DNA of 64,000 bases from Mixia osmundae IAM 14324 (Eukaryota; Basidiomycota; Mixiomycetes; Mixiales; Mixiaceae). Numbering within the stretch: position 1 is the first letter of the stretch; every line of letters starts with the position of its first letter. A program made the position numbers and the translations under genes. The stretch spans positions 2,122,068 through 2,186,067 of the forward strand of contig NW_014575563.1 of assembly GCF_000708205.1 (NCBI RefSeq), given 5' to 3'. Below the pieces are notes generated by a model. That model had not been told where the DNA came from and did not search any database. It saw only the letters and a list, made by a program, of their open reading frames with translations. Positions 1,125-18,641 of this stretch are shown one piece after another.

Positions 1125-3201
1125 TCAGTTGCAATCATGACTGGACACGATGTAGGGCAGACCCTGCAGCGAGGATCTACGCGACGATGCGCAATATGCT
1201 GGCCGTGCCTGAAGCATGAAGGGCGCTTTCTCAGGCGCGTAAGGCGAGCGCGGTGCGTCAACGAGATGCTCGTTGTCATGCGTCAAAGTCGCGTCTTCTT
1301 CGACGTCATCACTGTTCTCGCCCTGTCCGTTGACTTGGCACGGACTTTCGTCCTGCGAGGATGCAAGAGACTCTGACAAAGGGCTTTGTGTGTTGTAGAC
1401 GAGCGACGAGTGATCAGCTTCACTTCGATCTCGTAGCTGCCGAGTCAAGTCTGCGATTCGCGAATCCTGCGAGAGGCGTCAGCGGGACGTGGAGCTACAG
1501 GGATGCCATCTAACCTGCGCACTGACACGGCGTAAGATGACGGCAATGTGCGATTCGGAGGCCCTCGAATGGCCAGCATGGGCATCGGAATGACCGTTGC
1601 ACTGGATAGCCTGCATTTGCTGATTCAGATGCTGAAGCTGGACCAACTTCGCTCGCAGCTCTTGTATCTCTGTTTCCGAGTGGGTAAAGCTGTGCTGCAG
1701 CGTCTTCATAGTGGCCGTGGCATTGGCGATATCAGAGGTCAGCAGAGAGTTGCGCGAGTCGAGGATGCTGATCTGCTGGCGCAGCTCACGCTCGACGGCG
1801 GTCTTCACTTGCAGCTTGTGCTGCAGATCGATGATGGTCCGCTGACTAGCTTCGAGACGTCCTTGTGTGTCTGGAGGTGCTTCGTGCGAGATCGCTTGAG
1901 GTTGGAGACATCTCGAGAGTCGAGCGAGGAAGTTCTCGCCCGCATCATCTGACACTGTTCTCGTTCTCGCGCGAGTATGAATAGGCAAGCTGACAGGAAC
2001 ACCCTCATCCGCTTGATGAAGCTGGTGAAAGCTTTCGATGAGCGATTTGACATGAGGCGAGGTTCTAGTACTGTGCTCAGTGTTGGCACGCGGGCGTAGT
2101 CCACTGTCGCGAGACGGTTCGCGCGGCGAGTTGACTGGGCGCAAATCAGCTTGCGTGCGCGACGGCCAAGGCATCGGCCCTCTTGCCGGAACAGTGGAGG
2201 ATGCGGCAGGCAAAGCTGAGCTGGCCGTTCGTGAGTACGGTGCGTCGCAGCTTGCTTGCGGCTTTGAGCCTGACCGCGGTTCAGCCGACTGTGTGACCGG
2301 ACAACAGGGTTGCTCGGACTGAGCTGCAGGTGCAAAGGCAGGAGCATCAGCTCTCAACTGACTGCCTGCGAGGACGATCGCATGAGCAGCACCGTCGTCA
2401 GCTTGACGCCAACAAGGCGTCATGAGGTCGATGAATTCCTCCTTTTCTGTGAGTGGCGTGAGCTGCGTGCCACGCCAGGCCTCGGAGCTGATGTTGGGCG
2501 CCGCTGAGACGGAATGACCTCGACGACCACCTCTGCGTCGTGTCGCACGATGAGATACGTCGGAAGCGCTGCGTGGTCTGAGTTTATTGTGTCGCTCGGA
2601 CGAGAGGTGCAGGTTGGCAGTGTTTTCGCATCGAGGTAGAGAACTACATGCACATTCGTTCAGTCAAGTCATGCCACAAGCGTAGCACTTGCACTTGAGC
2701 TGGTGTCTCGGGCGATACATGGCCCGGCGCAGGCGAGCGTGTGCGAACGAGCGCGAGCTCCATCTCGGCCGTATTGTCATTCTCCTGAGTATCATCCGAA
2801 GATGAGACGGATCGATCAGACAAGCTCGCGTGAGTCGATGCGGATGGTGGGGAAGAAAATGAAGGCAGCTTGATGACGATAGCGCTTGAGGGTCTACGCA
2901 TGCCCAATGCAGCCAGTGCCTTGGCCTCTTGCTGCTGTTTTGGCGTGAGCGGCTCCAGTTGTACGACTGTGACAGGCCTATGATGAGGCAAGGTGCCTGT
3001 ACACAAGCTCAAGGCAGTACTTGGCTCCGTCTGGGACTCGAGCAGATCGGCAGCCACCATGCTTGCGAGCGAACGCACAGGAGGAGTACGAAACAATGCC
3101 GATTCTCGCAGAGCCTGAGTGCGCAATGCGATGAAAAGTCGTTTGATCGCAACTTGGCTGCAACTCGCACCGTACTCGCGAGACGGCCGCTCTCGTTGCA
3201 T
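1125..3201 (-). CDS. coiled-coil protein, or C-terminal part of the gelsolin-like gene
   Basis: Exons 2654-3201, 1515-2577 and 1125-1466 are joined by introns of 76 and 48 nt with matching phases (about 650 residues if it starts at 3201). The middle holds Ser/Pro-rich sequence. Around 1550-1900 there is a clear heptad-type coiled coil (RTIIDLQHKLQVK and following), and the C-terminus is acidic. The frame stays open upstream of 3201. It can be reached from the gelsolin-like gene by a phase-matched 63-nt intron (3230-3292) with a good pyrimidine tract, which would make one protein of 1213 residues. If separate, only about 87 bp lie between that gene's stop and this ATG; spacing this tight also occurs upstream of HEM4 in this window. 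I recognise no domain and assign no function. Confidence 0.5.
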
Positions 3202-17582: not shown

Positions 17583-18422
17583 CCTGAGTGTGAGTACAGT
17601 CAGATCAAACAGAATCCGGGCCGATGATCTCCGTTGAGATGTACATCGATGCTACGTCTGCTGCGTCGGCAAAGAACTCGTGCTTGGCTATGTCGCGAGG
17701 GAAGACGTCTGTGCGCTACTGGACACGATCCGTGCGCTCGAGCAGACTATGGTCTCCTAGACGGAATAAACCTCCACATCGCCAAGATCCAACTAGCGTT
17801 TCGCTGTGCAAATGGCAACATGGCCGGCCTCGCGCGCCCACTTTGCAATTGTCTATTTGTCGATCGTCGCAAATTCGCGATTCCGGACAAGACAGAATTT
17901 CGATTTCACCAACCGGCATCTGATGCTGGCTCCATCAAGACCAAGTATTTGTTCATACGACATCGACCGGGGTATGCACTTTTGTGGCTTAGTCCTCGCA
18001 ATGCTGTTGACGGCCCGACGAATATGTTCTGTCGAGGCCTCTGCCTAGGCTCAGCATTTTTTTCATGATCGGATTTGAGCTGCGGCACGCGGAGATACTA
18101 GCCTCGCGTGAGTGGAATGGCAAAGACAGACATGTACTTTCACACTGCACGGGTGTCACCCTTCGCATGGTCTGTTCTGTCATCGTCTCCCGTCTCGACC
18201 GGGCAGGTATGATTTCAGCATGTTCAGATCATGATCTCCTGCATCCTCTCGTCTCAAGATGCTGCACGCCTATGAGGTGCATACAAGTCTAACAATGTGT
18301 ACGCATAAAAGTGAATAAACTCGTTGAACTCCAATCAGCAGCGACGGAGCGAGGAGAGTCAAAAATCAGCAACGCAACCGCTCTATCCACGCAAGGCGGC
18401 AAGTCGCGCAAAAAATGAGGTG
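17583..18422. other. 840-bp region without a confident gene
   Basis: This lies between the RhoGEF start and the tRNA-Pro locus. It is AT-richer than its neighbours. No long frame here has convincing family similarity. On the minus strand, 17610-17716 reads as a protein-like stretch (TDVFPRDIAKHEFFADAADVA), and an upstream minus-strand segment has a short WRCGGLFRLGD. I could not link them into a gene with consistent splice phases. They may be 5' exons of the RhoGEF or of a small unrecognised gene. A possible D-arm-like segment near 18370-18390 on the minus strand has no matching acceptor stem. Confidence 0.4.
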
Positions 18423-18443
18423 GGTCACTTCAGGGAGTCGAAC

Positions 18444-18492
18444 CTATCGTCTGATGAGCAAAGTTGATTAGAGAGATTGCGAACATGCTCAC
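18444..18492 (-). other. 49-nt insert in the tRNA-Pro T stem with GT...AG ends
   Basis: On the minus strand the insert starts GTGAGC, contains a branch-like CTCTAATC and ends GATAG. It has the length and border sequences of the spliceosomal introns in neighbouring genes. It also holds a six-base inverted repeat, TGAGCA and TGCTCA. It splits the 5' strand of the T stem (CAGG|G), a non-canonical place for a nuclear tRNA intron. The exact borders can slide by two bases because GG occurs on both sides. Whether it is removed is unknown. Confidence 0.5.
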
Positions 18493-18507
18493 CCTGTACC
18501 TCGCCCA

Positions 18508-18519
18508 GGTTACCGAAGG
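18508..18519 (-). other. tRNA-Pro intron 1 (12 nt, after position 37)
   Basis: The sequence CCTTCGGTAACC lies one base 3' of the anticodon, the canonical position for eukaryotic nuclear tRNA introns. Its first three bases can pair with the AGG anticodon, as expected for such introns. Removal gives the standard tRNA-Pro anticodon loop TTAGGGT. In Fungi these introns are cut by the tRNA endonuclease and sealed by the tRNA ligase, whose gene is also in this window. Confidence 0.55.
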
Positions 18520-18641
18520 CCCTAAGAGCAAATCATACCGGTAGACCAAAGCGACACATTTGGCGCGTCAGGAAAATGGATAAATAAACTTTGTGCAGCG
18601 AGCTAAATGATCAAGCTTGGCCATCGCCGCTTCTCGATCGA

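Follow-up and report, generated by a model that had tools for sequence, protein, structure and literature searches.

To our knowledge, tRNA splicing is regarded as independent of the spliceosome. Among the closest described counterparts of the genes reported here is the U6 gene of Schizosaccharomyces pombe which, according to PMC10484740, carries an mRNA-type intron in an RNA made by RNA polymerase III (Pol III), this intron being removed by splicing. In Cyanidioschyzon merolae and in nucleomorph genomes, tRNA genes are reported to hold up to three introns per gene, with T-arm and other ectopic introns accompanying one at the canonical site between positions 37 and 38 (37/38); those of C. merolae measure 11–69 bp, and its ectopic ones are ascribed to the tRNA endonuclease together with bulge-helix-bulge (BHB)-like motifs (PMC4090602, PMC3978253, PMC9602550). 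The review among these sources gives the splicing route of ectopic tRNA introns in nucleomorphs as unknown, and places non-canonical introns of archaeal tRNA genes at 53/54, 56/57, 59/60 and other positions (PMC4090602). Canonical 37/38 introns are given for 132 of the 143 tRNA genes of Cryptococcus neoformans (PMC4090602).

The locus analysed here is a tRNA-Pro(AGG) gene of Mixia osmundae IAM 14324, found in a stretch of 64,000 nt from contig NW_014575563.1 (positions 2,122,068 to 2,186,067; the window). It contains a canonical 37/38 intron of 12 nt too, and in addition an insert in the T stem; this insert and those of three further tRNA genes differ from canonical introns by their position, their greater length and their GT or GC start. 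As in the S. pombe U6 gene as described, a short non-coding Pol III gene carries an insert of mRNA-intron type, whose splicing is predicted in the Mixia case. Unlike in S. pombe, the hosts are several tRNAs interrupted at several positions, and Mixia U6 itself is intronless. The U6 of Rhodosporidium, a yeast of the Pucciniomycotina, reportedly contains introns. T-arm introns beside a 37/38 intron are shared with what is described for C. merolae and nucleomorphs; in contrast to the C. merolae introns as reported, the Mixia inserts display GT/GC...branch...AG signals and the length of mRNA introns, with a partial BHB in one of the four. Their T-arm positions are also similar to those listed for archaea, whose introns have BHB-type sites cut by the endonuclease; archaea have, as far as we know, no spliceosome. 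The intron type is already known, and the new part is the host gene class, tRNA. No report of spliceosomal introns in tRNA genes was found among the open-licence papers listed, as judged by their titles and the openings of their abstracts. The reading favoured here, with a probability of roughly 0.7, is that Pro(AGG) is a functional Pol III gene with a 37/38 tRNA intron and a U2-type spliceosomal intron, and that Arg, Lys and possibly Val genes are built similarly.

Anatomy of the tRNA-Pro(AGG) gene

The gene covers 133 nt of the minus strand (18423..18555), as delimited by ARAGORN on the spliced sequence. Exon 1 (18520..18555, 36 nt) comprises the 5' strand of the acceptor, the D arm, the 5' strand of the anticodon stem and the loop up to position 37. 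It is followed by the canonical tRNA intron at 37/38 (18508..18519, 12 nt) and by exon 2 (18493..18507, 15 nt), which holds position 38, the 3' strand of the anticodon stem, the variable loop and the T stem up to position 52. The spliceosomal-type insert GTGAGC...GATAG (18444..18492, 49 nt), defined by ARAGORN runs with the insert kept or removed and by splice-signal scoring, separates positions 52 and 53. Exon 3 (18423..18443, 21 nt) supplies position 53, the T loop, the 3' strands of the T stem and of the acceptor, and the discriminator C; the exon limits are those of ARAGORN. A run of six T, similar to a Pol III terminator, was read 7 nt downstream of the gene (18410..18415). All these features lie on the minus strand, which had been left unstated in the original prediction; its 36 nt at the 5' end agree with exon 1, whereas its 20 nt at the 3' end become 21 when the discriminator is counted.

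The double interruption that had been predicted, 12 nt at 37/38 and 49 nt in the T stem, was confirmed by comparing ARAGORN runs with the inserts kept and removed. The gene was not called in the ARAGORN scan of the window. Removal of both inserts gave tRNA-Pro(agg), and removal of the 49-nt insert alone gave the same tRNA with the 12-nt intron named by the program. With the 49-nt insert kept, no call was made when the anticodon-loop intron was set to none, to at most 150 nt or to at most 3000 nt. The reading in which a longer intron at 37/38 takes the place of the T-stem insert was rejected, ARAGORN finding nothing at either of the two latter limits. The spliced molecule has the 72 nt, the loop TTAGGGT, the variable loop AGGTA and the T stem CAGGG/CCCTG of the predicted cloverleaf, and 20 of its 21 stem pairs are Watson-Crick or G-U, the non-pair being T13-T22. 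Without the second excision, Rfam did not see the gene at the gathering threshold or at E values up to 10 on 601 bases, and the best uninterrupted fit reaches only 7 of the 12 acceptor and T-stem pairs, as against 12/12 with the excision. A 3' half pairing equally well is expected in 90 random nt with P 0.0024. The covariance model R1, made from this genome, puts the gene at exactly 18423-18555 with 27.7 bits, a score that is partly circular since the spliced Pro sequence is among the 16 sequences of R1.

Four placements of the 49-nt insert boundaries are equivalent, and one of them gives the GT...AG ends. Two branch-like motifs were read on its minus strand, CTAAT (18467..18471) and CTCAT (18454..18458); the A of the latter is 11 nt from the insert end, and this motif was picked by the noisier of the two splice profiles described below. 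An AG (in CATCAG) is present between CTAAT and the insert end used, so that the branch would have to be CTCAT unless the first AG is skipped. The B-box-like GGTTCGACTCC, found with a B-box pattern (18434..18444, minus strand), extends across the junction, from the last G of the insert into exon 3, and is kept there because the insert ends in AG and G53 is next. RNA folding of the precursor was uninformative (z -0.42). The predicted structure has the insert paired to the anticodon stem, on its 3' strand. The heptamer TTTGCTC is common to the insert (18444-18492) and to exon 1 (18520-18555) at the anticodon stem, a shared 7-mer being not unlikely by chance.

Interrupted genes among the tRNAs of the genome

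tRNA genes were searched in the whole genome (13,508,641 bases in 19 contigs). Rfam delivered 18 tRNAs at E<=0.001 and one further weak match at E<=10. A total of 27 tRNA genes was reached by adding Lys-TTT, Pro-AGG, Arg-ACG, Val-CAC, Val-AAC, Leu-AAG, Glu-CTC, Glu-TTC and a second Met-like gene. Given directly to Rfam, Arg-ACG, Leu-AAG and Glu-CTC, which had been missed in the genome search, pass the gathering score, and Lys-TTT nearly does so. Glu-TTC, the Met-like gene, Val-AAC and Val-CAC had no Rfam match at E<=1 and were assigned from R1 and reading by eye, as were by eye all anticodons beyond the calls of ARAGORN. Pattern searches contributed as follows. Searching for a Phe/Tyr/Trp-type D arm with three mismatches allowed gave 15 places, two of them with tRNAs (Trp and Tyr) and 13 rejected on reading. 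The D-arm pattern that led to the Val(CAC) gene gave six places, made up of four known tRNAs and two new ones. The B-box pattern gave 34 places, of which 30 were read by eye and four, none of them called, were scanned by script and model only. Finally, the pattern AGTTCRANYC occurs at 236 places, 40 of which were scanned with strict filters, yielding one new tRNA (the Met-like gene, L094). Genes for Phe, His, Cys, Asn, Ile, Gly-GCC and further Pro were not found in these non-exhaustive genome searches; tRNA gene searches favour intact genes, and the genes that escaped the census may be interrupted or strongly diverged.

Canonical introns are frequent. Among the first 18 tRNAs found, 14 were split by ARAGORN with 37/38 introns of 9–28 nt, shorter than the inserts at other positions; in L094 the intron measures about 32 nt by eye. 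None of the 15 listed 37/38 introns begins with GT or GC, although the Val(CAC) intron, which is not on the list, begins with GT. A divergent pair of genes was seen at locus L026, where Val(AAC) (936-1023, minus) and Arg(ACG) (1494-1592, plus) are about 470 bp apart; both have 37/38 introns by eye, and the Val(AAC) gene is not called by ARAGORN.

Inserts outside 37/38 were detected in 4 of the 27 identified genes: Pro (52/53), Arg(TCT) (53/54), Lys(TTT) (60/61) and Val(CAC) (33/34), with position numbers assigned by eye and none of them at the canonical site. A look for similar inserts elsewhere in the genome had been suggested with the original prediction, and it is these three additional genes, Val(CAC) least securely, that lend support to a spliceosomal-like intron in the T stem of Pro.

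Arg(TCT) (locus L016) is one of the 18 Rfam tRNAs. Its insert of 51 nt follows ATGAG, reads GCAAGT...GTTAACC...TCCAG and is succeeded by TTCGAATCTCGT. Rfam's own alignment shows 58 bases in the T loop, versus 7 in the model, and the acceptor and T-stem pairs amount to 12/12 with excision versus 8/12 uninterrupted. Lys(TTT) (locus L019) was the weak Rfam match at E<=10. Its insert of 55 nt, GTACGT...GCTGATC...TGCAG, comes after the T loop TTCGAGT. In the 3' exon, read by eye, CCCAC closes the T stem and ACTCGGT pairs at 6 of 7 positions with the acceptor, in which one A-C pair is present; 11 of the 12 acceptor and T-stem pairs form with excision, versus at best 7/12 uninterrupted. Rfam aligned 71 contiguous bases of this gene with 27.6 bits, below the gathering score of 29, and R1 produced a truncated fit without the downstream CCCAC.

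Val(CAC) (locus L027, 1494-1630) was found with the D-arm pattern search. An insert of 49 nt, GTACGT...CTGATCTAATCTCTCAG, lies between T33 and C34, with a boundary that was picked with GT-AG in mind, and the gene also holds a 12-nt 37/38 intron. The T and acceptor stems are fully paired (12/12 with excision), the T loop is AGCATAA instead of TTCRANY, and the D loop has A instead of G18. R1 gave 11.8 bits only, in an alignment different from the reading by eye. Neither Rfam nor R1 places the 3' exons of Lys and Val as they were read by eye. An alternative reading of Val(CAC), in which a Tyr(GTA)-like tRNA has a single long 37/38 intron, is possible on paper; it would put C at position 37, and the genome has a normal Tyr gene (L004).

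With the inserts removed, Arg has no non-pair among its 21 stem pairs, and Pro, Lys (the acceptor A-C) and Val (T13-T22) have 1 each; of the 13 other aligned genes, 12 have 0–1 and Met has 4. An equally good 3' half in 90 random bases has P values of 0.0011 (Arg), 0.011 (Lys) and 0.0045 (Val). T runs occur downstream of all four genes. A cloverleaf after excision, the invariant T loop and a terminator, as expected of functional tRNA genes, are all present in Pro, Arg and Lys; Val lacks the T loop. Structurally, the strongest cases are Pro and Arg. For Lys, the splice signals are firm and the structure was read by eye, and Val is doubtful, the least secure of the four.

Genome BLAST with the spliced Pro, Lys and Arg sequences matched their own loci only, by a route that is insensitive (a query of 13 tRNAs gave nothing). 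The D arm of Pro, searched with three mismatches, occurs at four places, namely the gene itself and three others, two of which were read and neither of which is a tRNA. Other copies of Pro(AGG) had been named as a check on the prediction, and no intact one appeared in these insensitive searches. Codon use was counted in two genes (3123 codons) and gave 53 CCT and 36 CCC (sum 89), 33 AGA, 36 AAA and 37 GTG. Under standard decoding, AAA and AGA need UUU and UCU tRNAs.

Comparison of the inserts with mRNA introns

The reference set consists of nine mRNA introns of 45–58 nt, all GT...AG, taken from two gene models of the window rather than from cDNA. These models are E5Q_00449, with 100% identity over 99% of the length of one open reading frame of the window, and L969DRAFT_84749, with 97% identity to the joined RasGEF query; both are encoded exactly by the window once the introns are removed. 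A larger set, obtained by joining reading frames, was noisy; the nine-intron set was preferred because only 3/9 known introns were recovered in the joined one. An open reading frame with a SAM domain, considered as a source of further mRNA introns, had no match at E<=1e-20.

The ends of the inserts are GT...AG in Pro, Lys and Val and GC...AG in Arg, so that GT/GC...AG holds for 4/4. Their 5' sites, GTGAGC (Pro), GCAAGT (Arg) and GTACGT (Lys and Val), resemble mRNA sites such as GTACGC, GTAAGC, GTAAGT and GTGCGT, and a branch-like motif is present in all of them, the candidates being TTAAC or CTCAC in Arg and CTGAT in Lys. The lengths of 49 (Pro), 51 (Arg), 55 (Lys) and 49 nt (Val) all fall within the mRNA range (n=9), in line with what the prediction had said of the Pro insert. 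By their ends, their mRNA-like 5', branch and 3' signals and their length, the four inserts resemble introns of the U2 type.

The match was quantified with a splice profile trained on the nine mRNA introns, made of six bases of the 5' site, the best branch-like 5-mer and five bases of the 3' site. Random genomic stretches (60,000 draws per insert, with sliding over 4, 3, 2 and 2 boundaries for Pro, Arg, Lys and Val) reached an equal score with P 4.0e-4 (Pro), 3.1e-3 (Arg), 1.7e-5 (Lys; 0/60,000) and 3.3e-5 (Val; 1/60,000). The second, noisier profile, from the reading-frame-joining search, gave 9.5e-4 (Pro), 2.5e-3 (Arg), 1.7e-5 (Lys) and 6.7e-5 (Val). With the plain condition of G[TC], G at +5 and AG, the values are 0.0128 (Pro), 0.0104 (Arg), 0.0062 (Lys) and 0.0061 (Val). 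A chance origin of the pattern is unlikely because of its recurrence, these splice scores and the pairing probabilities of the 3' halves.

Proposed splicing route and alternative explanations

The anatomy of the genes, its recurrence and its match to the nine mRNA introns are direct observations, from which we infer transcription, splicing, the splicing machine and the origin of the inserts. In the proposed scheme, the Sen endonuclease would remove the 12-nt intron of Pro, and tRNA ligase would seal the exons. U1 would bind the pre-tRNA at GTGAGC, branching would occur at CTCAT or CTAAT, and splicing would follow at GATAG; the T arm would be able to form only after removal of the 49-nt intron. 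The inserts may have arisen when mRNA introns were reverse-spliced into tRNA, a route that has been proposed for the U6 intron of S. pombe. Production of several tRNAs in M. osmundae probably requires the spliceosome. On balance, we also lean towards a wider picture in which spliceosomal introns occupy several nuclear tRNA genes at various positions, including the anticodon loop, decoding of the Pro, Arg(AGA) and Lys(AAA) codons would depend on the spliceosome, two splicing machines would act on one pre-tRNA, and the isoacceptors that were not found may be likewise interrupted. A caution applies to Arg, whose insert begins with GC and not GT.

The same inserts could be ectopic tRNA introns comparable to those of C. 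merolae or nucleomorphs and cut by a relaxed tRNA splicing endonuclease, their GT/GC...AG look being coincidental. The endonuclease is expected in Mixia because the genome has many 37/38 introns, and T-arm and D-arm introns of that kind are described in eukaryotes (PMC4090602, PMC3978253, PMC9602550). Arg(TCT) can form a partial BHB (P 0.073), whereas none was seen at Pro, Lys and Val, by a test that has little power because only 3/12 control 37/38 introns beat shuffles at P<0.02. Eukaryotic 37/38 sites are described as being without clear local motifs and as measured from the tRNA body (PMC4090602); for this reason, we infer that T-arm sites would be poor substrates for a normal endonuclease. 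With mRNA-type signals and length in 4/4 inserts, cutting by the endonuclease is considered unlikely.

The splice signals of the four inserts also weigh against decayed pseudogenes with chance insertions, whose mature counterparts would come from intact copies elsewhere, as random insertion is not expected to produce splice signals four times over. Short insertions in the T or D arm of eukaryotic tRNA genes are, according to PMC4090602, usually ascribed to pseudogenes; the T loop of Val is degenerate, the acceptor of Lys contains a mismatch, and intact copies could exist, given that the searches miss tRNAs. However, the stems are near-perfect after excision, a T run stands downstream of each gene, and no second Pro, Lys or Arg copy turned up in the insensitive searches, which makes decay quite improbable. 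Recent, repeat-like introner insertions, spliceosomal in nature, still damaging and only partly spliced, would account for GTACGT and CTGATCT being shared by the Lys and Val inserts, the best pair of which scores 21 against a 95% null of 20. This excess is marginal, and the null omitted the splice-site letters common to the observed pairs; such an origin is very improbable.

If spliceosomal introns do reside in these genes, they would form an exception to the spliceosome independence of tRNA splicing, in a small-genome, fern-associated basidiomycete. The spliceosome could then act on Pol III pre-tRNAs, with two machines on one precursor, and it would become testable in which order the machines act, where splicing takes place and how it is linked to modification of the T loop. 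A route would be given for the spread of spliceosomal introns into non-coding RNA genes, and a reason for tRNA finders missing genes in such genomes.

Inserts outside 37/38 are not general to Pol III RNAs in Mixia, because the U6 gene and two 5S rRNA genes are uninterrupted. U6 is the sole match in the genome search (L022, G000:C14:256502-256610) and lies about 1.5 kb from a Leu(TAG) tRNA gene. The 5S genes, with 79.2 bits each, are found at locus L069 (512-631, plus strand, and 2346-2465, minus strand), where they flank the Glu(CTC) tRNA gene.
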